This document shows positions 12,254 through 34,178 of a stretch of 34,178 nt of DNA, one piece after another (the stretch's first letter is position 1; each line of letters begins with the position of its first letter). The translations under genes and the position numbers were made by a program. The notes beneath the pieces were generated by a model that saw only the letters and a list, made by a program, of their open reading frames with translations, was not told where the DNA came from and made no database searches. Origin of the DNA: Sneathiellales bacterium (GTDB lineage: Bacteria > Pseudomonadota > Alphaproteobacteria > Sneathiellales > Sneathiellaceae); the NCBI GenBank assembly GCA_022360775.1, contig JAKSCD010000379.1, forward strand, positions 1-34,178, given 5' to 3'.

Positions 12254-12958
12254 TTACCCGTGAAGAGCGTCTTCCGCAAGCTCGCGAAGTCTGCTCATAT
12301 CAAGAACATCAATTCTGCGGCGCTGCACCGTGATGATCTCTTCATCAACCAGGTGATTAAGTTCCCGCGTAACCGCTTCACGGTGAGTACTGATGCGCGT
12401 TGCCATTTCATAGTGAGTGGGCGCCGGGTTTATGACAACAATTCCCTCCCTCTCATTTTCCTGCCCTTTATCTGCGAGCCTGAGCAGCTCAACAATGACA
12501 CGCCCCTGTACAGGCAGTGTGCTGAATTCAAATACCCGATCACTCAATATTCTTGTTTTTTCAACCAGAATTTCGATCAGTTTGATCGAGGCTTCAGGCA
12601 TTTCAGTCAAGGTTCGCCTAAAGTCACTGGCGGACATGCGGGCAAGAAGACATTTCTTGAGTGCAAAAACAGAAGAAGCACGGTCCTGACCATCAATGGC
12701 AGAGAATTCACCAAATATGTCGCCGTCTGCAATATCATTGAAGGAAACTTCCCGCCCGGACAATGAGTAGCTTTTTGCCCGAACTTCACCTTCAACGACA
12801 AAAAACACATCTGTCGAAGGATCTTCCTGGCTAATAATCTGCTGCCCCTTATCACATTGTTGCCAACGGCATCGGTCACTCACAATACTGACCTGTTCGT
12901 CGCTCAAATTTGAAAGCAATCTGCTTCTTTTTAAACCTGACAACTGCCGATCAAGCAT
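12254..12958 (-). CDS. Crp/Fnr-family transcriptional regulator (Crp-like)
   Basis: 234 residues from the ATG at 12958. I prefer this over the upstream TTG at 12964 because GGGGAG lies 9 bases before the ATG but only 3 before the TTG. The N-terminal cyclic-nucleotide-binding domain includes VFFVVEGEVRAKSYS and a phosphate-cassette-like GEFSAIDGQDRASSV. There are no N-terminal cysteines for an FNR iron-sulphur cluster. The C-terminal helix-turn-helix has recognition helix STHREAVTRELNHL, which keeps the R-E-xxx-R arrangement of E. coli CRP rather than the ExxSR of FNR. It should therefore prefer TGTGA-N6-TCACA sites, three of which occur near by. A terminator follows at 12231-12188. Effector not proven; cAMP is the best guess. 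Confidence 0.85.
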   Translation of the reverse strand: MLDRQLSGLKRSRLLSNLSDEQVSIVSDRCRWQQCDKGQQIISQEDPSTDVFFVVEGEVRAKSYSLSGREVSFNDIADGDIFGEFSAIDGQDRASSVFALKKCLLARMSASDFRRTLTEMPEASIKLIEILVEKTRILSDRVFEFSTLPVQGRVIVELLRLADKGQENEREGIVVINPAPTHYEMATRISTHREAVTRELNHLVDEEIITVQRRRIDVLDMSRLRELAEDALHG

Positions 12959-12991
12959 AATCAAGGGCTCCCCTTCGCACCAATTGTTCGT

Positions 12992-13425: not shown

Positions 13426-13484
13426 AATAAAGTAGTAACCCATAGTGCTTTCAACTGGCTGGAGTTTCTGTGGGAAAAGTCACA
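13426..13484 (-). promoter_or_regulatory. Candidate promoter of the beta-sandwich gene with CRP-like site
   Basis: On the minus strand the near-perfect CRP site TGTGA-N6-CCACA (13484-13469, one mismatch from the palindrome) precedes a -35 TTGAAA (13454-13449), a 17-base spacer and a -10-like TTTATT (13431-13426). The predicted start near 13419 puts the operator centre at about -57, close to a class I CRP position. The same site is over 200 bases from the divergent cyclase start, so it more likely serves the minus-strand gene. Confidence 0.45.
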
Positions 13485-13674: not shown

Positions 13675-13695
13675 ATGATCCATAGAATGATCTAA
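13675..13695 (+). CDS. Possible six-codon leader peptide coupled to the cyclase gene
   Basis: ATG at 13675 opens a frame encoding MIHRMI. It stops with a TAA whose last base is the A of the cyclase ATG (TAATG). A weak AGGGA lies a few bases before the leader ATG, whereas the cyclase ATG itself has no clear ribosome site. Termination-reinitiation could therefore drive cyclase translation. Such a short frame can arise by chance. Confidence 0.3.
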   Translation: MIHRMI

Positions 13696-16600
13696 TGACT
13701 AACCAAATAAGAAAAAACACGACAGGTTTTCCTAGTCAGCGACGTCATTTGACTGTCCTATTTTCGGATATTTGCCATTCGACAAGACTTGGCGCCATAA
13801 CCGATCCGGAAATAGCGGCAGAAATTGTTCGAACTGTCAAAACAACCGCCAAAGAGGTTGTCTCAAATTTCGGCGGGCTTGTTACACAGTTTCATGGTGA
13901 TGGCATTCTGGCTGTTTTTGGTTATCCATCCCCTTCAGAAAATGATGTACATCGGGCTGTCGAAGCAGCCCTTAAGCTTCATGAGCTAGTAGATGCACTG
14001 GATTTTGAAGAATTCCTTCCCCAGGACTTTAAAATCGAAATGCACTCCGGTATCGAAGCGGGGCTGGTTCTTGTCAGCGATGGAGATTATCTGGACGGAA
14101 CATTGGAGCTTGTAGGAGATGCGGTGAATACGGCTGCCGGTATTTGTAACCTTGCCTCTGATGGCGAAATACTGGTCAGTTCCTCGACGATCGGTCGCGA
14201 CCTTCCTCTTTTCAATACATCCACCTTGCCGGCCATGGATCTTAAAGGGCGCACCGGCAAAGTTTCGCTCGTCAAAATTCTGGGCCGTTCAGACATTAAC
14301 ACACGTTTCGAAGCAAGCCGTACCCGCGGCCTGACGACCTTCATCGGACGAGAGAACGAAGTTCAGACACTCAACCGATATCGGGACAGGGCAGTTCGTA
14401 ACTCGCGCCAGGTTGTCCAGATTATTGGAGACCCAGGCCTTGGAAAAACGCGCCTGCTTGACGAATTTTGCAGTCAACTTGACGGGAAGAATTACAGAAT
14501 TCATCGAGGACATTGCGAGTCAAGAGGCGGGATTGCGCCCTTGCAACCATTTATTCAGGTTTTACGGGAACTTTTCAATTTACCTCATGCAGAAGGGCGT
14601 GAGGAAACCCTGCACCGGATCAGAAATACTCTTTCCACACTTGATGAAAACCTTCTTCAATATGAAGAAGTCTTTCTGGATGCGCTGACAACCCTGAGGA
14701 CAGCAGACGCCCCGCTATCCAGCCATTCCATGGCCGTACCGGTGGCGCAAATGCTGATTTCCCAATCAAAACTGACCCCGACGGTTCTGATTATCGATGA
14801 CTGGCAATGGGTAGATGATGCGTCGCGGACAGTTCTTTATCATCTTGTCAGACAATCCGAGAAAGAGCGGCTTCTCATTGTTCTGGCAACACGAGACACG
14901 ACTGCCTCGGATATGTTTCTCGAACTTTCCGGCCGCCTTCCCTTGCTTCCTCTAACAAAAGAAGCCACCTCTCAACTCATCGATGAACTTCTCCCGGACA
15001 AGGGAGTTCTGGACACCAAGAATAACCTGCATATCAAATCCGGCGGGAACCCTCTTTTTCTGGAAGAATTATGCCAGTCCTTTCACGACTGGAACCAGAA
15101 AGAAGAACAAAGTACCAAGGCTGGCGTTATTCCTGCAACATTACAGGGTCTTATTGAAACACGTGTACGAAGGCTGCCGGAAGATCAGATCAGTCTCATT
15201 CATATTGCATCGGTGATCGGGAATACGATCCCTTTGTGGCTACTGGAACGTCTCAGTGGCCGTCACAGAAGTGATCCGATTTTCAAGGAACTTGCAGATA
15301 GCGATATTATCTATGACGGCGGGATCCGGGACACACTTCAGTTCAAGCACGGGATTACAAGGGAAACCATTTACGCGACTGTCGGATTAAGGTTACGGCG
15401 TTCCCTGCATCTTCAAATCGCCGAAATCCTTGAAGAGCTTGCAGCTGTTACAAGTCTTGATGAATATCTGGAAAGCCTGGCCTACCACTATGCAGGTGCA
15501 GCAGATTTCAACAGAGCCATGGAATATGCGGAACGCGCAGGAGATAAAGCCCTTGCCTCATCGTCGTTAGACCGTGCGCGTTTGCAATATCAGGCGGCTC
15601 TCTCTGCCATCGAGAAACAGAAACCTTCACAAGAGTCAAAAGAGAGATGGATATCAATAAGTGATCGCTGGGCTCTTCCTTGCGTATATGGTCCGGAGAA
15701 AACTCAATTGGGAATTCTGGACAAAACAATCGCCTATGCAGAAGAGCTGGAGGATATCGATGGTCTTGCCCATACCCAATATTGGCAGGGGTATATTTCT
15801 CATGTTCTTGGTGATCAGGAAGCTTCGATCAATTTCTATACCAAGGCGCTCGCGACAGCAGATAAAGCGTCCAACAAACGCCTATCCGCACAAATTACCG
15901 CAACCCTTGGCCAAAGCCATGCCGCAGCCAGCAATTACGAGGCAGCATTGGGACTTCTGGAACGCGCGATCAACAAGAAAAAGGAACACCCGAATAAATT
16001 CGGGATCCGGGTCGGCACCTCATACGCGCTTTCCAGCAAGGCCCTGGTGCTTGGTGATATGGGCCTTTTCAATGAATCTGACGAATGCAGCGCCAATGCC
16101 TATGATAATGTGAGTGGTAACGGTCATGAAATCGAGAGTTCAATTCTGAATAACCGAGCTGTTGTATGTTTATGGCAAAGCCGCTGGCAACAGGCCATTG
16201 ATTATTCTCTGCAGTCTAGGAAAATCGCTGAACAGGTAAGTGCTCCCTATCTTTTCGCCTGTGCATCAGCGATCAACGCCTATGCCCGGTGGATGAATAT
16301 GAAAGACAGTAAAGCAATTGAAACACTGCGCCAGGCCATATCGCTTGTCGAGGAAAAAGGAATGTTCCTTTATTCTTCGTTCTTCTATGGCTGGATCTCT
16401 GATGCGCTTGTCGATATTGATGAAGATGAAGACGCCCATCACTATGCGAAGCTTGCTCTTCAACGGGCAGACCAGCAGGATCGATTAGGCGAGGCCATGG
16501 CCTGCAGGACACTGTCATTAGTACATCAGAAAAGAAATATGGGAGCTGACGAGAAGGTCTTGCACTATATAGAGCGGGCGATGGAGGCAGCGCGGACAAG

Positions 16601-16775
16601 GCGTTCTCCTCATGAAGCCGCCATTACACAACTTCACAGATTTCGCTACCTTGCGAGCACTGAGACGACTGTCCCGGGGATTGTTGAACTGGAAAAAGTC
16701 AAATCCGAATTTGAAGCGATGGATATGGTCTGGTACCAGCAGCAGGCGCAAATGTTAATCGAGCATATTCGCTAA
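13695..16775 (+). CDS. Adenylate/guanylate cyclase-domain protein with AAA ATPase and TPR repeats
   Basis: 1026 residues. Residues about 15-200 are a class III nucleotide cyclase domain with both metal-binding aspartates (D25 in LFSDICHST, D69 in FHGDGILAVFG) and the transition-state Asn (N145 in GDAVNTAAG). By eye alignment, other catalytic positions differ: Q65 for Lys, E138 for the adenine-selecting Asp and G149 for the catalytic Arg. Residues about 215-480 form a P-loop ATPase with Walker A GDPGLGKTR and Walker B VLIIDDWQWVDD. The rest is helical, with TPR-like repeats (about 600-1000). This layout is common in alpha- and actinobacterial signalling proteins. It may make cAMP for the neighbouring Crp-like regulator, or be a catalytically impaired nucleotide sensor. 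Cytoplasmic; no membrane segment. Confidence 0.85.
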   Translation: MTNQIRKNTTGFPSQRRHLTVLFSDICHSTRLGAITDPEIAAEIVRTVKTTAKEVVSNFGGLVTQFHGDGILAVFGYPSPSENDVHRAVEAALKLHELVDALDFEEFLPQDFKIEMHSGIEAGLVLVSDGDYLDGTLELVGDAVNTAAGICNLASDGEILVSSSTIGRDLPLFNTSTLPAMDLKGRTGKVSLVKILGRSDINTRFEASRTRGLTTFIGRENEVQTLNRYRDRAVRNSRQVVQIIGDPGLGKTRLLDEFCSQLDGKNYRIHRGHCESRGGIAPLQPFIQVLRELFNLPHAEGREETLHRIRNTLSTLDENLLQYEEVFLDALTTLRTADAPLSSHSMAVPVAQMLISQSKLTPTVLIIDDWQWVDDASRTVLYHLVRQSEKERLLIVLATRDTTASDMFLELSGRLPLLPLTKEATSQLIDELLPDKGVLDTKNNLHIKSGGNPLFLEELCQSFHDWNQKEEQSTKAGVIPATLQGLIETRVRRLPEDQISLIHIASVIGNTIPLWLLERLSGRHRSDPIFKELADSDIIYDGGIRDTLQFKHGITRETIYATVGLRLRRSLHLQIAEILEELAAVTSLDEYLESLAYHYAGAADFNRAMEYAERAGDKALASSSLDRARLQYQAALSAIEKQKPSQESKERWISISDRWALPCVYGPEKTQLGILDKTIAYAEELEDIDGLAHTQYWQGYISHVLGDQEASINFYTKALATADKASNKRLSAQITATLGQSHAAASNYEAALGLLERAINKKKEHPNKFGIRVGTSYALSSKALVLGDMGLFNESDECSANAYDNVSGNGHEIESSILNNRAVVCLWQSRWQQAIDYSLQSRKIAEQVSAPYLFACASAINAYARWMNMKDSKAIETLRQAISLVEEKGMFLYSSFFYGWISDALVDIDEDEDAHHYAKLALQRADQQDRLGEAMACRTLSLVHQKRNMGADEKVLHYIERAMEAARTRRSPHEAAITQLHRFRYLASTETTVPGIVELEKVKSEFEAMDMVWYQQQAQMLIEHIR

Positions 16776-16795: not shown

Positions 16796-19700
16796 TCAGT
16801 CTTCGGTCAGGGACAATGTGAAGGTGGAGTTATATTCAAGAACCTCCTGCTCCATAATCACTGCAATAACCCCTTGCAGTACCCCCAGTGCCATCCACTG
16901 TCCGGAACAGCCATGGGTCGTGTCTCCATGATTGCCGCCAAACAAAATAGCGGGATCACCCGGCGCTTCCTCTGCTGCAGACTGGAGGCTTACAACGACG
17001 ACCTGACCGGCTTTAATCTGCACACCCCCGAGTTCCGTATCCCGAACGGCAACACGATGCAATAAATTGGGCCTGGAGCGTTTTTGCATAGCCTTCACCA
17101 TCGGCTCCCTCAAGATGGCACTTGTTTCCGCATAGCCGATATCCGAAGTTTTGCGCTCACTGCGGTCTGTAAAAAGCATCTGACGATATTTCCAAAGCTT
17201 TTCATTACCGATCCAGCGCCGCATCACTGACAGAAAGCTGCCTCTTGATGCTGCAACGAAGCCGTTTACACATCCAACAAGCGTGCGTGTCATCAACTCG
17301 TTATCACCAGCGAAAGGTTCTGTCTGGAGTAAATACTCGTGGAGTGATCCCGGTGCAGCAACCCCTTTATCAACATGAGCCCGTACAGTTGTATTAAGCG
17401 CAATACCCCTAATTTGCGCTTCCTGTACAACAAAGTCTGTTGGCCTTGGCCCAAAAAAGTAATGCGACGCGGAAACCAGATCATCGGGAACATTAGGGGT
17501 CTGTGTTGCCTCGCCGCCGATATCAACGGAACCGTCAGTCGGCAATCCAAAATACTGAACAGACAATTCTCCCAATATATCAACGATACATCGCTTCAAC
17601 TCCAGAATATCCGGGTTTCGTTCCTTCTTTAAGGTATCTTCAAACCATTTACGGGACACTTTTACAGCATGTTCAAAGGCTCTTTCCTCTGTGATGCCGG
17701 CGATCCATTTGTTGGTTGGATCAGCATGGCGGCAATAATCATTTTTCGATTTGCTGCTTTCAAAGGCCTTATCCCGGGTCTCATTTTCAGTAGCAGAGCC
17801 TTCAGGAATAACCGCAGGGTTTGGATCCAGCCCCAAATATAGTGGCCCGATAGACCGGCGCATTCGTTCCCAATACTCCCGGGTTGAAAATGTCTGGCCG
17901 TCATCACGAAATACTTTCAGAACATTTTCCATATCCCCCACAAGAACGCCATACGGGCTCTGCATGACACCCCCATCAAAACGAATTTTAGCCCAGACTT
18001 CCTCGGCTAAGTCCTCGCCGCTCGGATCTTCCAGCAACGCCTTCCAGGCATATCTAACTTTTTCTTCTACAACAGGTTCCGGCAACCTCTGCTGACGCAA
18101 TTGCTGTTCGAACATATGAAGCTGGAAGATAGACCGGGTTCCGTTTTCTATTAGAATGTCCGGCAGCTTGGGCAATTCCTGAGGCTGTCGGCAAAGTACA
18201 TCTATTGCTTCGAGAGACGGAACAAACAGATAGAGCCCCCATTGCAGATCAACAAACTGCTCCTGCGGCAGATCCAGACGGATGATCTGATCATCATGCA
18301 CAAATCTCAATGTCCTGTTTTCATTTTCCGGCCGCGCTGCAACCAGTGCATCGAAATGTTTGCTCAGGCCCCCGGAACTATTATCTCCATTGATCCAGTT
18401 CTGGATGACTTCGAACTGCTCGGCGATTGAGGCATTATAGGCCATGAAGAACAGGCCCCTATCTTCAGATGCTGTTTCTTGCGAATAAGGCGACCCGTAT
18501 GAAAATCCGCGTCTGACAATCCGGGGAACGGGTCCCCCTTCCGCCATTGGCTTTATCGGATCCCGTGGATTGGTTCGCCGGGTATGAGCATGAATTGGGC
18601 AGGCTATGCCTTTTGGGTCATCCTCATAATCGAAATCGTTGATATGTTCCGGAGCCTCCACATGGGGCGGCAGAAGAGGTTCACCATCGGTATAGCGCCC
18701 CATCATTTTCGCTTCCAGGCTCGGGCGATCAATCACTGTTGCCGCGTCATTAACGAAGCGATTAAACGCTTCAACATTCTGATAAAGCTTTCGGATCACC
18801 AAAAAAGAACCTTTATTGAAAAGATCCTTGATTTCGGGTTCGAAAACCTTCGGCGGAACAGAGGGCGCATCCCTGTCACTTGCATATCCGAGGAAAACAT
18901 CTCCAAGAGACACCTCATCACGCTCCAGCTTGTTTTCTTTTGATTGTCCCTGGAGATTTCGGACATGGGGCTGGCTAACGCCATCTAGAAAACCGAAATG
19001 CTCTATAAAACCGTCAATCCCATCCGGCGCCTTAAACCGTTCCAGTTTTTCAACAGCCATAAGCTCAACATCATGAAGCTCAATTGCCTGTTGCCAGTCG
19101 GCTAACTGCTCGTCGATAGAATGGATGAGTTCACTCTGTTTGTCCTTAAAGCCCTGAAGCTGGACAACCATGTCTACTGACGACATTCTGACATCATGTC
19201 CAGTCTTGACATGCTTGGGCAATTTCCAGTTCTTTGGATAGTTACGCCCCATATCACCAAGCTGTCCGGCCCTTGCCTCCATTCCTTCACGGAATTCCTT
19301 GGGAAATTTTCGGAGGACAGGTTCACCTAGTCCAAAACTTTTCAGTGCTTTATAGGTGAGTGAGAAATTACAAAAGACCTTCGCTTCCGTTGCTTCTCCG
19401 GCTATGGACAATCTGGATTTTCGATCCGCGAGAAATGCCCGGGCTTTATCCATATCCGTAAATTGAAGAAGCATGAGACACCCGGTATCTGTCCCGCCAT
19501 AACCGGACAGAATACCGCCCTGAACGCCTTCAGGGATCTCCGGGTTTTCCGGTCCTTTATCAACATCCTTCAGACTTGTTTCAAAGCTGGTCAGCCAATC
19601 GATCTCGTCTTTATATTTTCGCTTTTCAGAAGCCGTCAGCTTTTCGGGGGTAAATCCGAAAATCAGGGCTTCTGTGAGGCGCTGCAAGTAAAACTGGTCA

Positions 19701-20404
19701 CTTCCAATATGATCCTCCCCATGGGCTGCTCCAGGAAAATACTCGTTCAATCGATACATGGCCGAGAGGAGATCCAGGGCCTGTTGCTTTGCCTCTTCCG
19801 GCTTGTTTTTCAGGGCCTGACGTACTTTTTCAGACTGGGTTGGCATCCGCATTGTAGCGGCATACTCATCAAATTTATGAGGATCTGCTATTGACCGCTG
19901 TTTATTTTCAAGCTTTGTCAGATAGATAATATCATCAACAGTAAGATTGGAAGAAGACATCCCGTAGAAATCAACATCGATCTGGTTGTCTTCAACATAT
20001 TTCCCAAATCCTTCATATCCCTTCCAGCAGGTAAAATCTTCATATCCTGTACAGTGGCAGAGAATTGCGTCCAGAACCGGGCCGGCAACATCAACGATCC
20101 GCCGAACATATGTTTCAAGTGAACTGTCGAACGTGACCGCCAAAAGCATCTTCCGGTTTTCCTCGATGACAGTCCAGCGAACCGAATGAATGGTTTGCAA
20201 GCGATCGATAGGGCCGACATAGATGGTTTCACCCTTTTCTTCCAATCCGATTTTTCGAATAGAATTTAATGTCCGAAGCAGAATGCGAAGCCGGGTCGCA
20301 TAAGTAATTGAGTCCCTGATAGGAACAAATTCCTGCTTCAAATCGGAGATGACAAGGAGTTCAGTAGAAGTACGTTGACCTTTGCTGGAGATTTCTTCAC
20401 GCAT
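16796..20404 (-). CDS. DyP-type peroxidase fused to cytochrome P450-like domain
   Basis: 1202 residues from the ATG at 20404. This is preferred over an upstream TTG at 20434 because AAGGGA lies 7-12 bases before the ATG. Residues about 20-240 form an alpha/beta segment of uncertain family. About 290-690 is a dye-decolorising peroxidase domain with the GxxDG motif (GFLDG, 471-475), distal Arg538 in GSFLVIRKLYQNV, and the proximal-histidine region ACPIHAHTRRTNPRD (H605/H607). About 770-1202 resembles a cytochrome P450: LREP K-helix-like segment, ELGGVQIKAGQVVVVSLQSA, and a Cys-loop ending THGCSG (Cys1166) with a three-residue longer spacing than FxxGxxxCxG. There is no signal peptide. Two haem centres in one chain suggest coupled peroxide and oxygenation chemistry. 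A consensus CRP site lies 114-129 bases upstream. Substrate unknown. Confidence 0.72.
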   Translation of the reverse strand: MREEISSKGQRTSTELLVISDLKQEFVPIRDSITYATRLRILLRTLNSIRKIGLEEKGETIYVGPIDRLQTIHSVRWTVIEENRKMLLAVTFDSSLETYVRRIVDVAGPVLDAILCHCTGYEDFTCWKGYEGFGKYVEDNQIDVDFYGMSSSNLTVDDIIYLTKLENKQRSIADPHKFDEYAATMRMPTQSEKVRQALKNKPEEAKQQALDLLSAMYRLNEYFPGAAHGEDHIGSDQFYLQRLTEALIFGFTPEKLTASEKRKYKDEIDWLTSFETSLKDVDKGPENPEIPEGVQGGILSGYGGTDTGCLMLLQFTDMDKARAFLADRKSRLSIAGEATEAKVFCNFSLTYKALKSFGLGEPVLRKFPKEFREGMEARAGQLGDMGRNYPKNWKLPKHVKTGHDVRMSSVDMVVQLQGFKDKQSELIHSIDEQLADWQQAIELHDVELMAVEKLERFKAPDGIDGFIEHFGFLDGVSQPHVRNLQGQSKENKLERDEVSLGDVFLGYASDRDAPSVPPKVFEPEIKDLFNKGSFLVIRKLYQNVEAFNRFVNDAATVIDRPSLEAKMMGRYTDGEPLLPPHVEAPEHINDFDYEDDPKGIACPIHAHTRRTNPRDPIKPMAEGGPVPRIVRRGFSYGSPYSQETASEDRGLFFMAYNASIAEQFEVIQNWINGDNSSGGLSKHFDALVAARPENENRTLRFVHDDQIIRLDLPQEQFVDLQWGLYLFVPSLEAIDVLCRQPQELPKLPDILIENGTRSIFQLHMFEQQLRQQRLPEPVVEEKVRYAWKALLEDPSGEDLAEEVWAKIRFDGGVMQSPYGVLVGDMENVLKVFRDDGQTFSTREYWERMRRSIGPLYLGLDPNPAVIPEGSATENETRDKAFESSKSKNDYCRHADPTNKWIAGITEERAFEHAVKVSRKWFEDTLKKERNPDILELKRCIVDILGELSVQYFGLPTDGSVDIGGEATQTPNVPDDLVSASHYFFGPRPTDFVVQEAQIRGIALNTTVRAHVDKGVAAPGSLHEYLLQTEPFAGDNELMTRTLVGCVNGFVAASRGSFLSVMRRWIGNEKLWKYRQMLFTDRSERKTSDIGYAETSAILREPMVKAMQKRSRPNLLHRVAVRDTELGGVQIKAGQVVVVSLQSAAEEAPGDPAILFGGNHGDTTHGCSGQWMALGVLQGVIAVIMEQEVLEYNSTFTLSLTED

Positions 20405-20517: not shown

Positions 20518-20533
20518 TGTGAGTTTTCTCACA
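20518..20533 (-). promoter_or_regulatory. Consensus CRP operator upstream of the DyP-P450 gene
   Basis: TGTGA-GTTTTC-TCACA matches both CRP half-sites perfectly with the correct 6-base spacer; flanks AAG and TTG also fit the longer consensus. Centre 20525.5 is about 120 bases upstream of the DyP-P450 ATG and about 255 bases from nasT. A TATCTT (minus strand, 20502-20497) about 26 bases downstream could be the -10. Regulation of the DyP-P450 gene is the better-supported reading. Confidence 0.65.
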
Positions 20534-20737: not shown

Positions 20738-20773
20738 TTTTTGCATTGCACAATATGTTCGCATGCGCAAAAA
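20738..20773. repeat. Inverted repeat overlapping the nasT translation start region
   Basis: TTTTTGC (20738-20744) and GCAAAAA (20767-20773) form a 7-bp inverted repeat with a 22-base spacer ending 6 bases before the nasT ATG at 20780. In RNA it could occlude the start region, which lacks a clear Shine-Dalgarno sequence; in DNA it could be a regulator site. Confidence 0.35.
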
Positions 20774-20779
20774 TACTAT

Positions 20780-21376
20780 ATGTCTGATTCCGCGATATCA
20801 GTATTGATCCTTGATGAGAACAAGATCCGCGCTTCAATAATTGAAGCTGGATTAAAAGAGGCTGGTCACAGCCAGGTGACGATCCTCAGTCATACAACCG
20901 GCATAGCCAAAGAAATAGAAACTCTGGATCCCGATGTCATTGTTATCGATCTTGAAAATCCAAATCGGGACATGCTCGAAGCCATGTTTCAACTTTCCAG
21001 GAGTGTCAAACGACCTGTCGCCATGTTCGTCGATCACTCTGACGGTGCAGCTCTCGTTTCTGCAGTTGAAGCCGGGGTTTCCGCCTATATTGTGGATGGC
21101 CTTAAAAAAGAACGTGTAAAGCCAATTCTTGATCTGGCTATCCTCAGGTTCAACGCCTTTGCCAAGATGGAACGGGATCTTGAATTAGCGAAAGAAGAAC
21201 TGGCCGGCCGGAAACTTATAGATCAGGCAAAAGCAATTCTTATGGAAAAGCGCGGCTTTTCAGAAGAGGAAGCTTATACACTTTTACGCAAGACGGCGAT
21301 GAACCAAAATTCCAAGATCTCCACTGTCGCTCAGAGTCTGATCACCGCCGCAACTCTGCTTAACGAGGGAGATTGA
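20780..21376 (+). CDS. nasT: NasT, ANTAR-domain nitrate/nitrite-responsive antiterminator
   Basis: 198 residues from the ATG at 20780; the frame extends upstream to a TTG at 20741, but the conserved receiver-like start (ISVLILDENKIRASIIEAGL) follows the ATG. Residues about 1-120 are a receiver-like domain. About 130-195 is an ANTAR RNA-binding domain (RKLIDQAKAILMEKRGFSEEEAYTLLRKTAMNQNSKISTVAQSLI). NasT proteins bind paired hexaloop hairpins in nitrate-assimilation leaders and prevent termination; without nitrate they are held inactive by NasS. The nasS gene follows directly (1-base gap), and a matching leader lies at 22719-22832. No good ribosome site is visible before the ATG. Confidence 0.92.
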   Translation: MSDSAISVLILDENKIRASIIEAGLKEAGHSQVTILSHTTGIAKEIETLDPDVIVIDLENPNRDMLEAMFQLSRSVKRPVAMFVDHSDGAALVSAVEAGVSAYIVDGLKKERVKPILDLAILRFNAFAKMERDLELAKEELAGRKLIDQAKAILMEKRGFSEEEAYTLLRKTAMNQNSKISTVAQSLITAATLLNEGD

Positions 21377-21377
21377 A

Positions 21378-22556
21378 TTGGCCTTATCTTCACTAACCAA
21401 TATTCATGCCGGATTTCTACCACTTACGGATGCAGCAATTCTTATCGCCTGTAAAGAACTGGCATATGATAAAAAAAATGGCTTCACACTCAATCTGGTT
21501 AAAGAAAGCTCATGGGCGAATATCCGCGACCGGATGGCTATTGGCCATTTTCAGATAGCTCATATGCTTGCGCCGATGCCTGTTGCCGCCAGCCTCGGCC
21601 TTAGCCCGTTACCGCAATCCATCATCGCACCCATGGCGCTCGGGGTCGGAGGCAATGCCATTACGATCTCCCGCGCTCTCGCAGAAAAAATACACATTCA
21701 TTTATCCGCCCCGACCATTAACGCAAAAGAAACGGGTCTGGCTCTTTATAAAGTTGTAGCCGAAAACCGGAAAAGAAACGGAACTCCTCTCTCCTTCGGG
21801 GTTGTGCATCCCTATTCAAGCCATAATTTTGACCTTAGATACTGGCTGAACGCGTCAGGAATAAATCCGGAAACCGACATTCAGATTGTTGTTGTTCCCC
21901 CTACATTGCTTCCGGCGGCTTTGGAGGCTGGCCATATTGACGGATATTGCGTTGGCGAGCCCTGGAACAGTGTGGCCGTTGAGGGAGAAATTGGAGAAAT
22001 CCTCACAGTAAAAAACGAAATCTGGAAGCATAGTCCGGAAAAAGTCCTTGGAGTGTCACAGTCCTTCGCATCTGAAGAACCAGCCTTACTAAGCGCCGCA
22101 CTTAGATCTTTTTACGAAGCAGCGAGATGGTGCCAAAATCCTGAAAATATTGAAGAACTAGCGATCATACTGGCACAAGAAAAATACATCGGCCAGGCTG
22201 CTTCCGTTATTTTCCCGGCTCTCTCCGGACAGCTCAAAATAAAGTCAGATCAAACGATGCAGAGCGCCGGGTTTCTTGACGCATTTACCAATCACGCCAC
22301 GTACCCCTGGCAAAGCCATGCCTTATGGTTTTATACCCAGATCGAACGGTGGAGGGGCCAGACCTGGGATCCCGTAAAAGCGAAAGCCGCCCAACAAACC
22401 TTTCGGCCAGATCTTTATAAAGATGCCTTGCAAGAACTGGATATATCCTTTCCTGAGAGCTCAATAAAAATTGAAGGGGATAACCAGTTTTTTGATCAAC
22501 GGGTTTTTGACCCAGGGAAAGCAGATCAGTATCTAGAGCAGGATCTGGCAAACTGA
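21378..22556 (+). CDS. nasS: NasS, cytoplasmic nitrate/nitrite sensor
   Basis: 392 residues starting at TTG behind ACGAGGGAG. It is homologous over its length to the NrtA encoded downstream; both share patterns such as HNxxLRYWL, [16 protein letters not shown] and EIWKxxPEKVxG. Unlike NrtA it has no signal peptide, so it stays in the cytoplasm. In Paracoccus, Azotobacter and Bradyrhizobium, NasS binds nitrate or nitrite and then releases NasT. The gene begins one base after the nasT stop, so the two proteins are made together. It is followed by a 293-base region carrying the nrtA promoter and attenuator. Confidence 0.92.
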   Translation: MALSSLTNIHAGFLPLTDAAILIACKELAYDKKNGFTLNLVKESSWANIRDRMAIGHFQIAHMLAPMPVAASLGLSPLPQSIIAPMALGVGGNAITISRALAEKIHIHLSAPTINAKETGLALYKVVAENRKRNGTPLSFGVVHPYSSHNFDLRYWLNASGINPETDIQIVVVPPTLLPAALEAGHIDGYCVGEPWNSVAVEGEIGEILTVKNEIWKHSPEKVLGVSQSFASEEPALLSAALRSFYEAARWCQNPENIEELAIILAQEKYIGQAASVIFPALSGQLKIKSDQTMQSAGFLDAFTNHATYPWQSHALWFYTQIERWRGQTWDPVKAKAAQQTFRPDLYKDALQELDISFPESSIKIEGDNQFFDQRVFDPGKADQYLEQDLAN

Positions 22557-22690
22557 CCTCGATAGCGCCCAAAAAAAACGCATAACGCAAAAAAAATAGT
22601 CAGTTCTACAAATTCATCACGCAGGCAAATCACAAGGAATTTTTCAATAACTGATTGATTTATATAATATTTACCTGAAATCTACTTAAC

Positions 22691-22705
22691 TGGCACAATT
22701 CTAGC
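22691..22705 (+). promoter_or_regulatory. Sigma-54 promoter of the nrtA operon
   Basis: TGGCAC-N5-TAGC matches the sigma-54 consensus TGGCACG-N4-TTGC at all but two positions. The invariant GG (22692-22693) and GC (22704-22705) are spaced exactly as -24/-12. The transcription start would fall near 22716, just before the first ANTAR-type hairpin. Sigma-54 dependence implies activation by NtrC or a similar protein under nitrogen limitation; no convincing NtrC-binding pair was found upstream. Confidence 0.72.
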
Positions 22706-22718
22706 AAAGAAGAAGCTA

Positions 22719-22764
22719 GATCAACGATGATCACGAAATAACACATTATCCATTGACGGATTAT
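22719..22764 (+). ncRNA. Two-hairpin ANTAR-target leader motif upstream of nrtA
   Basis: Hairpin 1 is GATC-AACGAT-GATC (22719-22732) and hairpin 2 is ATCC-ATTGAC-GGAT (22748-22761), the latter extendable outward by T-A and A-T pairs after one T-T mismatch. Both hexaloops carry A at position 1 and G at position 4, the signature of RNAs bound by ANTAR proteins such as NasT. They lie between the sigma-54 promoter and a strong terminator. The stems are short (4 bp core), so pairing strength is modest. Confidence 0.65.
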
Positions 22765-22774
22765 TCTCTGGCAA

Positions 22775-22832
22775 CGCCGCCAAACCCCGCCTGATTTTTA
22801 AAAAAATCGAGCTGGGGCTTGGCGGTTTTTTT
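22775..22832 (+). terminator. Intrinsic terminator/attenuator in the nrtA leader
   Basis: CCGCCAA (22777-22783) and CCCC (22785-22788) pair with GGGG (22814-22817) and TTGGCGG (22819-22825). An inner GATTTTT/AAAAATC stem sits in the loop, and seven T follow (22826-22832). It lies 17 bases before the nrtA ATG, so it must be overcome for the operon to be expressed. With the adjacent ANTAR-type hairpins this is a NasT-controlled attenuator. Confidence 0.82.
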
Positions 22833-22849
22833 ATTTCAAGGAGATCTGA

Positions 22850-24244
22850 ATGCCTCTCTTTAAAACCATGCGACGCATAACCTTGTCCGCACTAAGCGCA
22901 GGTATAATGTCCTTCGCTTTTGTGTCCTCTACCTATGCCGAAATACTGGATGTTGAAAAAGACGAGTTAAAATTCGGTTTTATCAAGCTTACTGATATGG
23001 CCCCCCTCGCGATCGCTTATGAGAAAGGGTATTTCGAGGATGAAGGTCTTTTTGTCACCCTTGAGCCGCAAGCGAACTGGAAAGTTCTTTTGGACCGGGT
23101 CATCACAGGCGAGCTCGATGGTGCTCATATGCTCGCCGGTCAGCCTTTGGCTGCGACCATCGGCTATGGCACAAAAGCTCATATTGTTACGCCCTTTTCA
23201 ATGGATTTGAACGGTAACGGTATTACTGTCTCCAACGAAATCTGGGAAATGATGAAAAAACACATTCCTGTTGGCGAGGATGGAAAACCGGTTCATCCCA
23301 TCAAGGCAGATGCCCTCAAGCCCGTTGTCGATCAATTTAAGCAAGAAGGACGCCCTTTTAATATGGGAATGGTCTTTCCAGTCTCGACACATAATTATGA
23401 ACTTCGATACTGGCTGGCTTCCGGCGGCATTCATCCGGGTTTTTACTCCAAGGAAGATATCAGTGGCCAGATCGGCGCAGATGCCCTTTTATCTGTTACC
23501 CCTCCCCCTCAGATGCCAGCTACTCTGGAAGCGGGAACGATTTATGGATATTGCGTTGGGGAACCGTGGAACCAGGCTGCCGTGTTCAAGGGTATCGGTG
23601 TTCCAGTCATCACAGATTATGAAATCTGGAAAAACAATCCAGAAAAAGTCTTTGGCCTGACGAAAGAATTTACTGAAAAGAACCCAAAGACAACACTTGC
23701 ACTCACCAAAGCCCTTATCCGGGCTGCAAAATGGCTGGATGAGGATAATAACGCCAATCGCATGGAAGCCGTAGAGATCCTCTCCCGTTCTGAATATGTC
23801 GGGGCCGATAAAGAGGTTATTGCCAATTCAATGACGGGGTTCTTTGAGTATGAAAAGGGCGACAAAAGAGACATTCCAGATTTCAACGTCTTTTATCGTT
23901 ACTTTGCAACATACCCTTATTACTCCGATGCCATCTGGTATCTGACCCAAATGCGCCGTTGGGGCCAGATCACCGAGCATAAAGACGACAACTGGTATGC
24001 CGGTGTTGCCAAGTCCGTTTATCTGCCAGACATTTACCTGAAAGCTGCCCAAATGCTGGTTGAGGAAGGTCACGTCGACAAGAAAGACTTCCCTTGGGAC
24101 ACAGATGGTTACCGTGAACCAACCTCAGCTTTCATTGACGGTATTACCTACGACGGCAAAAAACCCAATGCCTATATTGACGCGCTCTCCATTGGCTTGA
24201 AATCAAAGCAAATCATCAAAAACGGCGCAGCCGTAGAAGGCTAA
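22850..24244 (+). CDS. nrtA: NrtA, periplasmic nitrate-binding protein
   Basis: 464 residues with a Sec signal peptide ([24 protein letters not shown], probable cleavage after about residue 30). No lipobox Cys is seen, so a soluble periplasmic protein is likely, unlike the lipoprotein NrtA of cyanobacteria. The mature part belongs to the NrtA/NasF/CmpA solute-binding family: [75 protein letters not shown]. It delivers nitrate (possibly nitrite) to NrtB. AAGGAG lies 7 bases before the ATG. Expression is gated by the sigma-54 promoter and leader terminator just upstream; a stable hairpin follows the stop. Confidence 0.93.
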
Positions 24245-24251
24245 CAGAACC

Positions 24252-24277
24252 TGCCGGAAGCGAAACAGCTTCCGGCA
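24252..24277 (+). other. Stable hairpin between nrtA and nrtB
   Basis: TGCCGGAAGC and GCTTCCGGCA form a perfect 10-bp stem with a 6-base loop, starting 7 bases after the nrtA stop. No T run follows, so it is not a classical terminator. Such structures behind binding-protein genes of ABC transporter operons often protect the upstream mRNA from 3' exonucleases and raise binding protein over permease. That role is inferred here. Confidence 0.65.
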
Positions 24278-24306
24278 AATCGACCCCATAAGTACAGGAT
24301 ATAAAC

Positions 24307-25398
24307 ATGTCTGAGCATAGTGCTACTCCAGAAAACCTTGGCAAGTCCGGGCAGCAATCCATTGCACGAGAAAAGGCCTTTTTGATTATCTCCAGGCTGG
24401 AAGGCTGGCTGAATGCACTGGGATTATCCTGGCTTACTCCACTGTTGAAACTTGCCGCCGGTGATAACCCGAAAGAGCAGCTGAACGAACTGAAGCGGGT
24501 TTTGCTAATCCCTTTGTGTGGCATTGCAATTTTTCTGATTGCCTGGGCTATTCTTGCCCCCAAGGTTCATACATCGCTTGGCGCAATTCCGGGCCCGGTT
24601 CAGGTTCTGGAACAAGCCCAAAACCTGATCGAAGATCATGTTCGTGAACGACGCAAGGCTGACGCTTTCTATGATCGGCAAGACGCACGAAATGCAAAAC
24701 TTATCGAAGCGGGCAAAGCTGATAAGGTTAAGCACAGAAACTATACTGGCAAGCCGACCTATTTTGACCAGATATTTACATCCCTGATGACCGTCGGGCT
24801 TGGCTTTCTGGTTGGAACCATTATCGCAGTTCCGCTCGGTATCGCCTCGGGCTTGTCGCGCACAGTCAATGGCGCGATCAATCCCCTGATCCAGATTTTC
24901 AAGCCGGTATCCCCTCTGGCCTGGCTTCCTATTGTCACCATGATAGTCTCTGCCCTTTACGCCAACCCCTCCGATCTTCTTCCGAAGTCACTGGTTATTT
25001 CGGCTATTACAGTGACACTGTGCTCACTTTGGCCAACCCTGATCAATACGGCACTTGGCGTGGCTTCAATTGACAAAGACCTCATTAATGTCAGCAAAGT
25101 GCTTCAATTACCAACACCGCAGACCATTACCAAACTTGTTTTGCCTTCTGCACTTCCCCTGATTTTTACAGGCCTGCGTCTTTCTCTTGGAGTGGGCTGG
25201 ATGGTTCTGATTGCCGCTGAAATGCTCGCACAAAATCCTGGTCTTGGAAAATTTGTCTGGGATGAGTTTCAAAATGGATCCTCCCAGTCGCTAGCAAAAA
25301 TCATGGTCGCTGTTTTGACCATTGGCATCATCGGCTTTCTGTTAGACCGCGTCATGTATGCGCTTCAACAAGCCTTCACCTTCAGCGCCAACCGTTAA
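24307..25398 (+). CDS. nrtB: NrtB, nitrate ABC transporter permease
   Basis: 363 residues, longer than typical NrtB (about 280) because of a hydrophilic N-terminus (1-60) and a charged insertion at about 110-155 (DHVRERRKADAFYDRQDARN region). A first transmembrane segment lies at about 65-85 (LLIPLCGIAIFLIAWAIL). The core binding-protein-dependent permease domain follows (about 155-355), with further helices and the cytoplasmic coupling segment near INVSKVLQLPTPQTITKLVLPSALPLIFTGLR. It should form the inner-membrane channel with NrtA and the NrtCD ATPase. It starts 62 bases after nrtA and is followed 15 bases later by the ATPase gene. Confidence 0.92.
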   Translation: MSEHSATPENLGKSGQQSIAREKAFLIISRLEGWLNALGLSWLTPLLKLAAGDNPKEQLNELKRVLLIPLCGIAIFLIAWAILAPKVHTSLGAIPGPVQVLEQAQNLIEDHVRERRKADAFYDRQDARNAKLIEAGKADKVKHRNYTGKPTYFDQIFTSLMTVGLGFLVGTIIAVPLGIASGLSRTVNGAINPLIQIFKPVSPLAWLPIVTMIVSALYANPSDLLPKSLVISAITVTLCSLWPTLINTALGVASIDKDLINVSKVLQLPTPQTITKLVLPSALPLIFTGLRLSLGVGWMVLIAAEMLAQNPGLGKFVWDEFQNGSSQSLAKIMVAVLTIGIIGFLLDRVMYALQQAFTFSANR

Positions 25399-25413
25399 GC
25401 AGGAGTATATTCG

Positions 25414-27147
25414 ATGAGCTTCATTGAGATTTCAGGTTTTGGGAAAAGCAATGGCGAAGGAAAATCTGCTTCCTCGGTACTAAAAGATGTCAATCTCACA
25501 GTCCGAGAGGGAGAATTTATTGCCATCGTTGGTTTTTCCGGCTCCGGAAAAACCACTTTAATTTCTGCCATTGCCGGACTTAATCAAGGGGATGAAGGCC
25601 AGATCATCTTTAAAGGTGAACCAGTCAAAGGTCCCAGTCCAAAGCGCGGTGTTGTTTTTCAATCTTATTCCCTTATGCCCTGGCTAACTGTCGAGGGAAA
25701 CATCGCACTGGCGGTGGATAGTGTTTTTCGGTCCAGTAGCAAAGCGGATCGCCAGGCTATCGTTAGCAAATATATTAAGATGGTTGGTCTCTCTCATGCG
25801 ACGGACAGGCGTCCAGCAGAGCTTTCCGGCGGCATGCGCCAGCGGGTCGCTGTTGCAAGAGCCCTTGCGATGCAGCCTGAATTGCTTTTGATGGATGAGC
25901 CGCTCTCTGCACTGGATGCACTTACGCGCGCAAAGTTACAAGACGAGTTCGCGGAAATTTCTCAAAAAGAGAAAAAAACCATCATTCTGATCACTAATGA
26001 TGTGGATGAAGCGATTTTACTTGCAGACCGTATTATTCCCTTGAAGCCAGGTCCTGGCGCGACTTTGGGTCCTGATTTTAAGGTTGATCTTCCTCGTCCT
26101 CGTGACCGTGGTTCTATGAATAACGACCCTGCTTTCATCAAATTGCGCCGCGACGTGACGGAATATCTGATGAATGTTGGATCGGAAAGAGGCGCTGATC
26201 TGGAGAATGATATCCAGCTACCGAACATTACACCGATCACACAAAAAGACCTTCCGGATGCTTATAAAAAAGCATCGGCATCAAACAGACTTGAAAGATA
26301 TGTCGAGTTCAGTCAGGTCTCCAAGGTTTATCCGACGCCAAAGGGGCCTCTTACTGTTGTTGACGGATTTGATCTGAAAATCAAAAAGGGGGAGTTCATT
26401 ACCCTGATCGGTCATTCAGGCTGCGGCAAATCGACGGTCCTTTCCATGGCTGCCGGGCTCAATAAAATCACATCCGGTGGTGTTATTCTCAACGGTACAG
26501 AAGTCGCAGGCGCAGGCCCCGAGAGAGCCGTTGTCTTCCAGGCTCCGTCCCTTATGCCTTGGTTATCCGCGTATGACAATGTGTCCCTTGGTGTGGAAAA
26601 AGTCTATCCGGGAGCTAATAAATCCGAACGTAAAGATATTGTTGAATATTACCTGTCTCGCGTTGGCCTTGCTGATGCCATGCATAAAAAAGCAGCCGAT
26701 CTTTCAAACGGCATGAAACAGCGTGTCGGGATCGCCCGGGCTTTTGCGTTATCCCCCAAACTGCTGCTTCTGGATGAGCCTTTTGGCATGCTGGACAGTC
26801 TGACCCGATGGGAGCTGCAGGATGTATTGATGGATGTCTGGAAGAAAACCAAGGTCACAACAATCTGTGTCACCCACGATGTAGATGAAGCCATTCTTCT
26901 CGCGGACCGGGTTGTCATGATGTCAAACGGTCCAAATGCACGGATCGGTAATATCATGGATGTTGGCCTTGAAAGGCCTCGTTCACGGACCGAATTACTG
27001 GCGCATCCGGATTACTACGCCTACCGGGAGGAGCTCCTTGATTTTCTTGAAGCTTATGAAGGCGGCGCCAATCCAAGCCCGGAACTTCTGAAATCCATCC
27101 AGCAAAAACGTGCTGACCGCCTGGCTAAACAAAAGCCGGCAGCGTAA
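25414..27147 (+). CDS. nrtC: NrtCD, tandem ATP-binding protein of the nitrate transporter
   Basis: 577 residues with two complete ABC ATPase domains in one chain. Domain 1 (about 1-265): Walker [10 protein letters not shown] (40-48), signature LSGGM (137-141), Walker B LLLMDEP, but the H-loop reads TND, giving N195 where His is expected. Domain 2 (about 295-560): Walker [10 protein letters not shown] (333-341), signature LSNGM (430-434), Walker B LLLLDEP, H-loop His488 in THDVDEA. It powers nitrate import through NrtB. Cyanobacteria use separate NrtC (ATPase plus NrtA-like domain) and NrtD proteins; here both ATPases are fused and the NrtA-like regulatory domain is absent. AGGAG precedes the ATG; nirB follows after 11 bases. 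Confidence 0.9.
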
Positions 27148-27158
27148 GGGAGGCAATC

Positions 27159-29606: not shown

Positions 29607-29959
29607 CAGTACAGGATCAGATCTGGTTTCCTGTGGGAAACATCCATGACATCCCCAAGCGCGGAGCTAGATGCATCAATTTTGGCCCCAACAAACTGGC
29701 TATCTTCCGCACTGAAGAAAACAGGCTTTTCGCCATGGAAGACAAATGCCCTCACGGGGGAGGTCCTTTAAGCCAGGGGATCGTTCATGGGGATTGTGTG
29801 ACCTGCCCGCTTCATAACTGGGTGATCTCGCTGGAAAACGGGGAAGCCCAGGGTGCAGATAACGGGCGGTCGAATACCTATCCGGTTAAATGTGAAGACG
29901 ATCAGATCTTTATCGGATTAAGCACATCGTCAAAAGAGAGTAGCGATCTAAATGCCTGA
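29603..29959 (+). CDS. nirD: NirD, Rieske-type small subunit of nitrite reductase
   Basis: 118 residues forming one Rieske-like domain. All four [2Fe-2S] ligands are present: C49 and H51 in CPHGGGPLSQG, and C68 and H71 in CPLHNW. This contrasts with E. coli NirD, which lacks them, and matches the redox-active NasG of Paracoccus. It can therefore carry electrons between the NirB FAD module and the nitrite- and nitrate-reducing centres. Translation is coupled to nirB (ATGA, 4-base overlap) and to nasA (8-base overlap). Confidence 0.93.
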   Translation: MTVQDQIWFPVGNIHDIPKRGARCINFGPNKLAIFRTEENRLFAMEDKCPHGGGPLSQGIVHGDCVTCPLHNWVISLENGEAQGADNGRSNTYPVKCEDDQIFIGLSTSSKESSDLNA

Positions 29960-32651: not shown

Positions 32652-34049
32652 CTATCTCTCTTTCAGGCTTTCGTTCTTGTATCTCAGAAGCGGTGTCAGC
32701 ACATATTCGAGCACCCGGCGATTACCGGTTTTGACCTCTATCGTTGTGGCCATGCCTGGGGAAAGGCTGACCATACGTTTATCAACCTGGATTTCATGAG
32801 CCGACATCTCAATTCGCGCATCATAAACCAGCCCCAGGTTTTCATCTTCTATGGAATCATTGGAAATCGTCAGGACCTTACCTTCAATGATCCCGTATTT
32901 TGTATAGGGAAAGGCCTCCAGTTTCACTTCCGCCTCCTGCCCGACCTCGACAAAACCGATATCTTTATTCAGGATCTTGGCATTGACCACCAGACGGCTA
33001 TTATCAGGCACGATGACCATCAGCGGTTTCGCCGCCTCGACCACACCGCCAACTGTATGAACGGCCAGTTGCTGAACCTTTCCATCCACAGGGGAGGTGA
33101 GCCTTCTCAGCACATCCCGGCGCTCTGCTTTCAGGATTTCCTGGTCGATCCCGTCAATCTGCCGCTGGACCTCGTTAAGCTCCCCAAGGCGGGTTTTTCG
33201 GATTTCATTCTCTTCGCGGAGCCGTTCCTGTTTGAGGGCTGCGATAGATGCAGTCACTTCGGCAATTCCCGCTTTTTCTGTCAGGATATCCTTTTCATTT
33301 TCAACCTGGACCTGCTGCAGTTCAAGCAGCCTTAAACGCGCGGCATATCCCTTGCGTTCCAGCTCGGCGATTGCATCCACCTGCTCCTTGATAAAGGGGA
33401 GTGACGCTTCCAGTTTTTCTATCCTGGCTTTGGCGACTTTCAGTTGCGCCTGCCGGCGCGCACCTTCTTCTTTATAATAGCGAAGACGCGCTTCCTGTTC
33501 GGCAAGTTCGTTTTCTATCCGTTGATGCTGTAAGCGAACTCGAACCGGGTCGGCTCCTGCAGGCGGTGTGAAACTCTCCCTTACTTTCTTTGAATCAACC
33601 AGCAAAGCCTCAAGCCGTGCCTTTTCAAGAGACGCCGTCATGCGTTCCTGCAACAACCGGTCCCGATCCGCTTCACTATCGGTTGGATCCAGTTCAATCA
33701 GAACATCGCCCGTCTTTACATGCTGACCATCGGCCACATGGATCGCCCGGACGACCCCGATTTCAGAAGCCTGAATAAACTTCACATGGTCAATAGGTAC
33801 GACCTTTCCCGTTGCTGTTGCCACAACATCAATTTTTCCGAACCACGCCCAAAGCGCCGCAATGGTAAGAAAAGCACCGATGCTCAGCATTAATCCTCGC
33901 CCAATGGGGGATGCCGGAGTTTCCATGACCTCGATCACGGCAGGCAGAAACTCGTAATCACTTTTTTTGCGCTTGATCCTGGGTCTTGCCTTATCCGCCT
34001 TCTTGGCCTCTTTCCAGATGGAGGCGGAGCGCTTCATCCCCTCAAGCAT
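32652..34049 (-). CDS. HlyD-family periplasmic adaptor of a second type I secretion system
   Basis: 465 residues from the ATG at 34049. This start is chosen over an ATG at 34076 because GGAGG lies 8 bases before it and none precedes the other. A charged cytoplasmic head is followed by one transmembrane helix (about 50-70, GLMLSIGAFLTIAALWAWFG). Then come the first lipoyl half (ATGKVVPIDHVKFIQASEIGVVRAI, VLIELDPTDSEADRDRL), a coiled coil (about 125-300), the second half TSPVDGKVQQLAVHTVGGVV and a C-terminal beta-barrel. It is a close functional analogue of, but clearly distinct from, the adaptor at 2826-4205. The ABC transporter gene upstream overlaps it by 8 bases (ATGCTTGA). It converges with nasA. 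Confidence 0.92.
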   Translation of the reverse strand: MLEGMKRSASIWKEAKKADKARPRIKRKKSDYEFLPAVIEVMETPASPIGRGLMLSIGAFLTIAALWAWFGKIDVVATATGKVVPIDHVKFIQASEIGVVRAIHVADGQHVKTGDVLIELDPTDSEADRDRLLQERMTASLEKARLEALLVDSKKVRESFTPPAGADPVRVRLQHQRIENELAEQEARLRYYKEEGARRQAQLKVAKARIEKLEASLPFIKEQVDAIAELERKGYAARLRLLELQQVQVENEKDILTEKAGIAEVTASIAALKQERLREENEIRKTRLGELNEVQRQIDGIDQEILKAERRDVLRRLTSPVDGKVQQLAVHTVGGVVEAAKPLMVIVPDNSRLVVNAKILNKDIGFVEVGQEAEVKLEAFPYTKYGIIEGKVLTISNDSIEDENLGLVYDARIEMSAHEIQVDKRMVSLSPGMATTIEVKTGNRRVLEYVLTPLLRYKNESLKER

Positions 34050-34178
34050 CTTCAAGCCCTCCAAGCTGCTTGTCATAAAGGCTTTTAAACAGACCGTTTT
34101 TCTTCAAAAGCTCTTTTGGAGGACCATCCTCGACAATACGTCCACCTTCCATCGAGATAATGCGGGTTGCATCTCGAA
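34042..34178 (-). CDS. Type I secretion ABC transporter, C-terminal end (truncated by window)
   Basis: On the minus strand from the window edge, an open frame reads RDATRIISMEGGRIVEDG, then PPKELLKKNGLFKSLYDKQLGG, and ends in TGA at 34044-34042. The MEGGRIVEDGPPKELL...NGLFKSLYDKQ pattern is the standard end of an HlyB-type ATPase domain, after the H-loop. Only about 44 residues are in the window. Its stop overlaps the start of the adaptor gene, so the two are one operon. Confidence 0.82.
   Translation of the reverse strand, partial: RDATRIISMEGGRIVEDGPPKELLKKNGLFKSLYDKQLGGLEDA

Follow-up and report, generated by a model that had tools for sequence, protein, structure and literature searches.

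A DyP peroxidase-P450 fusion gene from a Sneathiellales bacterium as a single-chain form of a bacterial haem module

The fusion gene and its three domains

The 34,178-nucleotide stretch of DNA analyzed here in full (the window; contig JAKSCD010000379.1 of assembly GCA_022360775.1, from a Sneathiellales bacterium) carries on its minus strand, at 16796..20404, a gene for a single 1202-residue protein in which an N-terminal domain (NTD), a DyP-type peroxidase and a diverged cytochrome P450 are joined, as identified from its open frame and its homologues. The frame starts with ATG at 20404 and stops at 16796-16798; an alternative in-frame TTG start at 20434 would give a protein of 1212 residues. 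A first-pass annotation had missed the strand; the plus strand gives no open frame at these coordinates, and all parts of the gene described below lie on the minus strand. The chain consists of the NTD (residues ~10-180), a linker, the DyP domain (residues ~291-738) and the P450-derived domain (residues ~801-1202). That DyP and a P450-type domain share one chain had been recognized by the first-pass annotation and is supported by profiles and a fold model, while the third domain (the NTD, residues ~10-180), which is the hallmark of the system, had been missed.

A full-length homologue with 66% identity and no stops was found in G012, a genome of the same genus assembled as one contig (L004/L064; G and L numbers are our handles for genomes and loci), and the fusion is present in 2 of 25 genomes of this genus. 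The same domain order occurs in two gammaproteobacterial metagenome-assembled genomes (MAGs), of which L002 is full length and L003 is truncated where its contig stops, as well as in G198 (L039) and on a Sphingopyxis plasmid (L077). The window's assembly consists of 579 contigs, which would be compatible with an assembly or gene-calling artefact that merged separate genes; against such an artefact, to which we assign next to no probability, stand the full-length homologues in the one-contig genome, in a gammaproteobacterial MAG and in G198, the presence of the DyP-P450 part in the second MAG and on the complete Sphingopyxis plasmid, and the 1202 codons without a frameshift. A chance frame or a chimeric contig is likewise ruled out by the homologues of the fusion in other genomes and on a plasmid, and the fusion of the three domains is genuine.

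The relatives of the fusion also differ from it in some details. On the Sphingopyxis plasmid (pDB-1; L077 5013-10463), the chain is without its NTD, with DyP and P450 left, and only 63 bp separate the DyP-P450 start from the end of a preceding Tn3-family transposase gene; the remaining neighbourhood matches that of the window. The NTD-DyP-P450 protein of G198 (L039 356-5152) has an extra C-terminal GDSL lipase-like domain in an open frame of 1599 residues.

The NTD (19865..20377) was tentatively classified from an AlphaFold2 model and fold comparison as ferredoxin-like, of the dimeric alpha-beta-barrel type. It showed no match in Pfam and no relative of note among PDB sequences; a match to an oligogalacturonate lyase spans 29 residues and was taken as chance. 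The predicted local distance difference test (pLDDT) values of the model are mostly >85 over residues 10-150. Its top VIA matches are dimeric alpha-beta-barrel proteins, among which ABM/WhiE-ORFI-like structures are best, with a Z score of only 8.4 and a root-mean-square deviation (rmsd) of 2.6 A over 110 residues, and Foldseek with the same model found nothing below E 0.05. There is moderate support from this modelling for an ABM-like fold of the NTD, which gives no indication of its function.

The DyP-type peroxidase domain (18191..19534) was identified by Pfam, NCBIfam and PDB matches, i.e., Dyp_perox_C (PF20628; E 3.9e-9, 36.9 bits against a cut-off of 20), TIGR01413 (E 4e-27; 95.4 bits, slightly under the cut-off of 100.5) and the peroxidase structure 8re3, which matches residues 345-736 at 3.8e-37 (8re3 and 8re2 both match at ~1e-36). 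The GFLDG motif and the proximal His that had been read in this half are indeed present, at residues 471-475 and at His607, respectively. Across an alignment of 30 related DyPs, the distal Asp474 of GFLDG (18983..18985), the proximal haem ligand His607 (in IHAHTRRTNPR; 18584..18586) and the distal Arg631 (in PRIVRRGFSYG; 18512..18514) are invariant. Arg538, initially named as the distal Arg, is the conserved Arg of a GSFLVIRK motif and is not at the distal Arg position of solved DyPs. Its position relative to His607 and the 30-sequence comparison led to its rejection in favor of Arg631 as the catalytic distal Arg, and the spacing of His607 and Arg631 is within the expected ~20-25 residues. Judged by these residues, the DyP active site is intact, and peroxidase activity is predicted.

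The C-terminal domain (16799..18004) scored 12.1 bits with the Pfam p450 profile (PF00067), which is under the cut-off of 22.8, and was assigned by profile-profile comparison, AlphaFold2 modelling and a tree. In the comparison of profiles (hhalign), five domains of the type seen in the window (window-type P450s) matched 13 ordinary P450s of the module described below with 99.5% probability (E 9.4e-23, 329 columns). The AlphaFold2 model (pLDDT 79.8, predicted template-modelling score 0.83) has P450s as its top structural matches, the first being P450BioI (Z 29.1, rmsd 3.1 A, 335 residues); as the input alignment for this model contained ordinary P450s, the profile comparison represents the more independent test. 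Both results bear out the initial suggestion that this part of the protein is P450-like. In the tree, module and window-type P450s group together to the exclusion of 20 other P450s encoded in these genomes (SH-aLRT 99%). The window type is a single branch within the module P450 clade (100%) with a long stem of 1.55, and may be sister to the G1005 P450 (88% support).

Sequence comparison located three diverged regions in this domain. The I-helix region GCVNGFVAASRG (17240..17275) has no acid-alcohol pair, as FVAAS replaces (D/E)T; the acid is absent from all 6 window-type and from 20 of the 22 ordinary module P450s. In the K-helix region KAMQKRSRPNLLHR (17054..17095), the ExxR motif has lost its E as well as its R (KAMQ at 1104-1107), consistent with the degenerate helix described initially, and the same double loss is seen in 6/6 window-type P450s. 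The haem-thiolate loop FGGNHGDTTHGCSG (16901..16942; His1164 and Cys1166) retains, as compared to FxxGxHxCxG, the F, the G and His-x-Cys-x-Gly, with 4 extra residues inserted, so the unusual spacing that had been noticed in the THGCSG Cys loop is real. His-x-Cys is retained in 6/6 window-type P450s, in which this loop is longer by 4-15 residues and the meander region is shortened. Between the window and G012, identity is 65% for the P450 domain and 64% for the DyP domain; synonymous sites are saturated, and for this reason no ratio of nonsynonymous to synonymous substitution rates is given, but the equal conservation of the P450 half in the face of this saturation indicates that it is under constraint. 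Overall, profiles, model and tree indicate that the P450 half is a true but strongly diverged P450, for which haem binding is predicted.

A bacterial haem module with exchangeable partners

Profile relatives of the NTD were found in 25 of 398 genomes from the window's phylum, in 6 of 369 from the class of G161 and in 12 of 385 from the window's class (these draws overlap); the surroundings of the loci and plasmid records were scanned with profiles built in this analysis. A DyP was adjacent or fused to the NTD in all 44 loci with an NTD. This count leaves out L112, which ends inside the NTD; L003 and L077 bring the total to 46 loci, not all of them independent, as some belong to closely related organisms. 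The partner was an ordinary P450 in 22 of these loci, a window-type P450 in 6 (i.e., a P450 in 28/46), a catalase-related protein in 10 and neither in 8, and no locus had both. NTD, DyP and a second haem partner constitute a bacterial haem module, and the window gene is the one-chain version of it; what is observed of this module is its architecture and homology, the mutual exclusion of its partners, its neighbouring genes and its motifs. Four genomes (G439, G364, G189 and G332) have no Pfam P450 other than that of the module, and in G000 and G012 Pfam recognizes none at all, so that chance adjacency is not credible.

The order of the parts varies among loci. The P450 is a separate gene in L065 (of G032), L054 and L061, comes first in a chain of 1410-1643 residues with the order P450-NTD-(NTD)-DyP in nine loci (L048, L049, L051, L053, L057, L063, L078, L079 and L103), and follows DyP in one chain in the window type as well as in L109, where the NTD is separate. 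NCBI labels of the fused proteins read "cytochrome P450" or "Dyp-type peroxidase domain-containing protein". A Streptomyces plasmid and a Granulicella plasmid each carry an NTD-DyP pair with no P450. For the catalase-related partner, an alignment of six sequences matched catalases (7.5e-6) and coral allene oxide synthase (AOS; 1u5u, 5e-5; 3e4w, 8e-4); one further catalase-related protein (L055) exceeds the Pfam catalase cut-off, and in L056 the catalase-related protein is fused to DyP. The fusion noticed initially is real but belongs to a far broader module, whose P450 is elsewhere separate, reordered or replaced by a catalase-related protein. In L040 (4388-8137), the gene after NTD-DyP encodes a RoxA-like cytochrome c domain; rubber and fatty-acid dioxygenases are among the relatives of RoxA.

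Haem peroxidase-P450 fusions are known in fungi, with a cyclooxygenase-type peroxidase. Like the window protein, these fungal DOX-CYP proteins (PpoA, linoleate diol synthase (LDS) and AOS) have an N-terminal haem peroxidase-type half and a P450 that keeps His-x-Cys, and in some members (PpoC, CcDOX1) the P450 half has decayed. Their first half, on the other hand, belongs to the cyclooxygenase superfamily, whereas the bacterial protein has DyP and an extra NTD, its P450 falls in a separate bacterial clade, and ExxR rather than Cys has been lost. The peroxidase half of the window protein is a DyP, and the protein shows no Pfam match to the cyclooxygenase-superfamily peroxidase PF03098; the earlier comparison with Ppo/LDS enzymes, made with the proviso that the peroxidase is a different one, stands as a likeness in kind and not in descent. 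In the fusions of catalase-related AOS or hydroperoxide lyase with lipoxygenase (corals, cyanobacteria), a catalase-related haem protein is likewise teamed or fused with an oxidase; here such a protein stands in for the P450 at 10 loci, but its partner is DyP with NTD rather than a lipoxygenase, and the sequence match is weak (E ~1e-5). DyP-type peroxidases (TIGR01413, PF20628) share with the window protein the profile match, the distal Asp and Arg and the proximal His, but in the window protein DyP is coupled with an NTD and with another haem-type domain, and its TIGR01413 score falls slightly short of the cut-off.

The oxygen-activation acid is lost in CYP74 and CYP8A1, and CYP74 also has a lengthened Cys loop. 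These features, as well as the loss of ExxR known from CYP157 (PMC3599690), are found in the window P450, but these families are not close to it in sequence, the nearest solved structures being ordinary bacterial P450s (P450BioI, CYP109 and EryK). Fusion of DyP to another enzyme domain has been described in Chaetomium, where the partner is a different one, i.e., a glycyl-radical domain (DyP-PFL; PMC5041501). No description of a DyP-P450 fusion or an NTD-DyP module was found in the open-access literature searched; subscription papers were outside this search and may hold a prior description. The system is in kind with the haem peroxidase-P450 fusions and in parts new.

Candidate chemistry and rival explanations

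The two known haem families that converge on the rearrangement of fatty-acid hydroperoxides are P450s (CYP74, PpoA-type) and catalase-related proteins (PMC5617202, PMC13049297). As both families, each known for such chemistry, substitute for each other here, as most module P450s are without the I-helix acid used for O2 activation and have no redox partner fused to them, and as lipid genes adjoin or join several modules, we hypothesize that the module acts on fatty-acid hydroperoxides (oxylipins); as a full mechanism, this reading has in our estimate an even chance of being correct. Under this mechanism, with its presumed substrate and order of steps, a lipase would release or expose an unsaturated fatty acid, and the NTD-DyP half would carry out the first step, in which a lipid hydroperoxide is formed or activated by peroxidase or radical chemistry. 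As the second domain, the P450 (in other lineages a catalase-related protein) would then rearrange, dehydrate or cleave this hydroperoxide with no need for NAD(P)H or a redox partner, in the manner of CYP74, catalase-related AOS and the PpoA P450 half, and the fusion would channel the intermediate. A two-step peroxide-driven oxygenase, as originally suggested, is plausible, and a lipid, then named beside an aromatic compound, is kept as a likely candidate substrate on the basis of the partner swap and the neighbouring lipid genes.

Among these lipid genes, a patatin phospholipase and FadL share one operon in L046, an arrangement repeated in L047. L065 has an LCAT-like hydrolase, L039 a fused GDSL lipase domain, L061 a Tle1-like phospholipase and L042 an esterase. 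Moreover, cyclooxygenase-superfamily (An_peroxidase) proteins of ~1000 residues are encoded in L056 (4772-7795) and L105 (10774-13914), i.e., in genomes of different families, in both cases beside a second catalase-related gene and an NTD-DyP module. The retention of His-x-Cys also fits this reading, its His being essential in PpoA (PMC9579011).

Several observations weigh against the hydroperoxide reading. Eight of the 46 loci are without either partner, and some neighbours are not lipid genes, i.e., a tyrosinase-like gene (L059), the RoxA-like cytochrome (L040), a glutathione S-transferase (L054) and a GMC oxidoreductase (L044). The window has no lipase, and nitrate assimilation genes lie to the right of the fusion. 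As these other neighbours are not lipid genes and the window lacks a lipase, the lipid reading is one that we infer. DyPs are not known to dioxygenate fatty acids, proteins of the catalase-like and DyP kinds might just as well act on H2O2, and substrate and activity are presumed for every module member. The loss of ExxR and the altered Cys loop, finally, mean that the window's P450 half may be non-catalytic.

As this half has diverged far, with ExxR lost and Cys kept, it may be a specialized isomerase or a scaffold that is dead but retained. A domain that in the window branch is no longer an enzyme, and serves the DyP half in scaffolding, oligomerization or ligand sensing as appears to be the case in PpoC and CcDOX1, would fit the loss of ExxR in 6/6 window-type P450s, their Cys loop with 4-15 added residues, the shortened meander and the stem branch of 1.55. 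In CcDOX1 and PpoC, the P450-related domains are without the Cys and yet still fused, and the oxygenase half of CcDOX1 is inactive alone (PMC9579011), which makes a scaffold role a serious rival, if one we hold only tentatively. It is opposed by His-x-Cys, which unlike in CcDOX1 and PpoC is retained in 6/6, by the conservation of the P450 domain at the level of DyP, and by the existence of ExxR-less P450s such as CYP157 (PMC3599690).

For the module as a whole, a system driven by peroxide, in which DyP and a P450 acting as peroxygenase would both use H2O2 on aromatics, xenobiotics, compounds of the lignin type or a secondary metabolite, would agree with the intact DyP active site, the module P450s without the I-helix acid, the GMC oxidoreductase as a possible H2O2 source beside L044 and the tyrosinase-like gene, as read from its sequence, beside L059. 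We nevertheless consider it unlikely, given that more lipid than aromatic genes are found near the module and that the replacement of the P450 by catalase-related proteins in 10 loci would be left unexplained. It appears somewhat less likely still that the module serves in oxidative-stress defence, removing H2O2 or lipid peroxides and making no products: the DyP and catalase-related partners, the patchy and partly plasmid-borne spread (2/25 same-genus genomes; plasmids) and the KatG and Fur genes near L081 would suit such a role, but a P450 is an unusual partner for detoxification, the links to phospholipase, FadL and cyclooxygenase-like genes point elsewhere, and the CRP boxes described below do not represent a known peroxide regulator.

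Returning to the hydroperoxide reading, the joining of these parts in many bacteria, often near lipid genes, suggests that bacteria have a so far undescribed route by which oxidized fats are made or broken down. If the reading is true, the spread of a DyP-based version over proteobacteria, along with P450-less NTD-DyP pairs in Streptomyces and an acidobacterium, would place DyPs, whose natural role has long been debated, in a concrete pathway with lipid substrates that can be tested, P450s and catalase-related proteins would be exchanged in one slot, and a natural ExxR-less P450 would be on offer. A bolder version, to which we give a small chance, is that the module represents a third, independently evolved class of oxylipin synthases, this one bacterial, in which NTD-DyP itself dioxygenates fatty acids, as no DyP is known to do, and passes the hydroperoxide on to the interchangeable P450 or catalase-related partner, a cyclic-nucleotide/Crp circuit is in control and the window P450 works without ExxR.

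Regulatory genes and other neighbours

A conserved convergent neighbour on the plus strand (13695..16775) encodes a 1026-residue protein with nucleotide-cyclase-like, AAA ATPase and tetratricopeptide repeat (TPR) regions (Pfam). A Crp/Fnr-family regulator (cNMP-binding and HTH_Crp_2 domains by Pfam) is encoded on the minus strand at 12254..12964, and its homologues lie beside the module in 8 other loci. A motif scan found, 129 bp upstream of the fusion ATG, the box TGTGAGAAAACTCACA (20518..20533, minus strand), which is the sole perfect CRP box (TGTGA-N6-TCACA) of the window; a CRP-type box with one mismatch is located 226 bp upstream of the cyclase-like gene (13469..13484, plus strand). Homologues of the cyclase-like gene flank the module in L064, L002, L003 and L077 and, more weakly, in L055 and L062, and on a Pararhizobium plasmid the cyclase, P450-NTD-NTD-DyP and Crp/Fnr genes lie in a row. 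Among 47 loci, CRP boxes (<=1 mismatch) were found upstream of the module in 8 of 9 loci with a Crp gene nearby as compared to 3 of 38 without one, counts that overstate independence as several of the eight loci are related. The ninth Crp-linked locus, without a box, is L077, in which the upstream DNA is a Tn3-family element. These data suggest that expression is probably under a cyclic-nucleotide/Crp circuit.

Class III cyclases usually read VN.AAR, with the transition-state Arg, and the cyclase-like domain of the window's neighbour has VNTAAGICN in its place; this domain may be inactive or altered, even though the Crp gene and CRP boxes adjoin. Upstream of the P450-NTD-NTD-DyP gene in L048, L049, L051, L053, L057, L063, L078 and L079, two kinds of TPR regulator occur, i.e., a cyclase-TPR protein, which goes with a Crp gene and a CRP box, and a SARP-like TPR protein, which goes without them; the choice follows the branch of the P450 tree.

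To the right of the fusion (20741-32615) lies the nitrate assimilation cluster, read from the sequence with two genes checked by Pfam, which comprises an ANTAR response regulator, two NMT1-like binding proteins, a permease, a tandem ABC ATPase, NirB/NirD and a NasA-like reductase. Type I secretion-like genes (an ABC transporter and two HlyD-like adaptors) are located at both ends of the window (697-4205 and 32652-34076).

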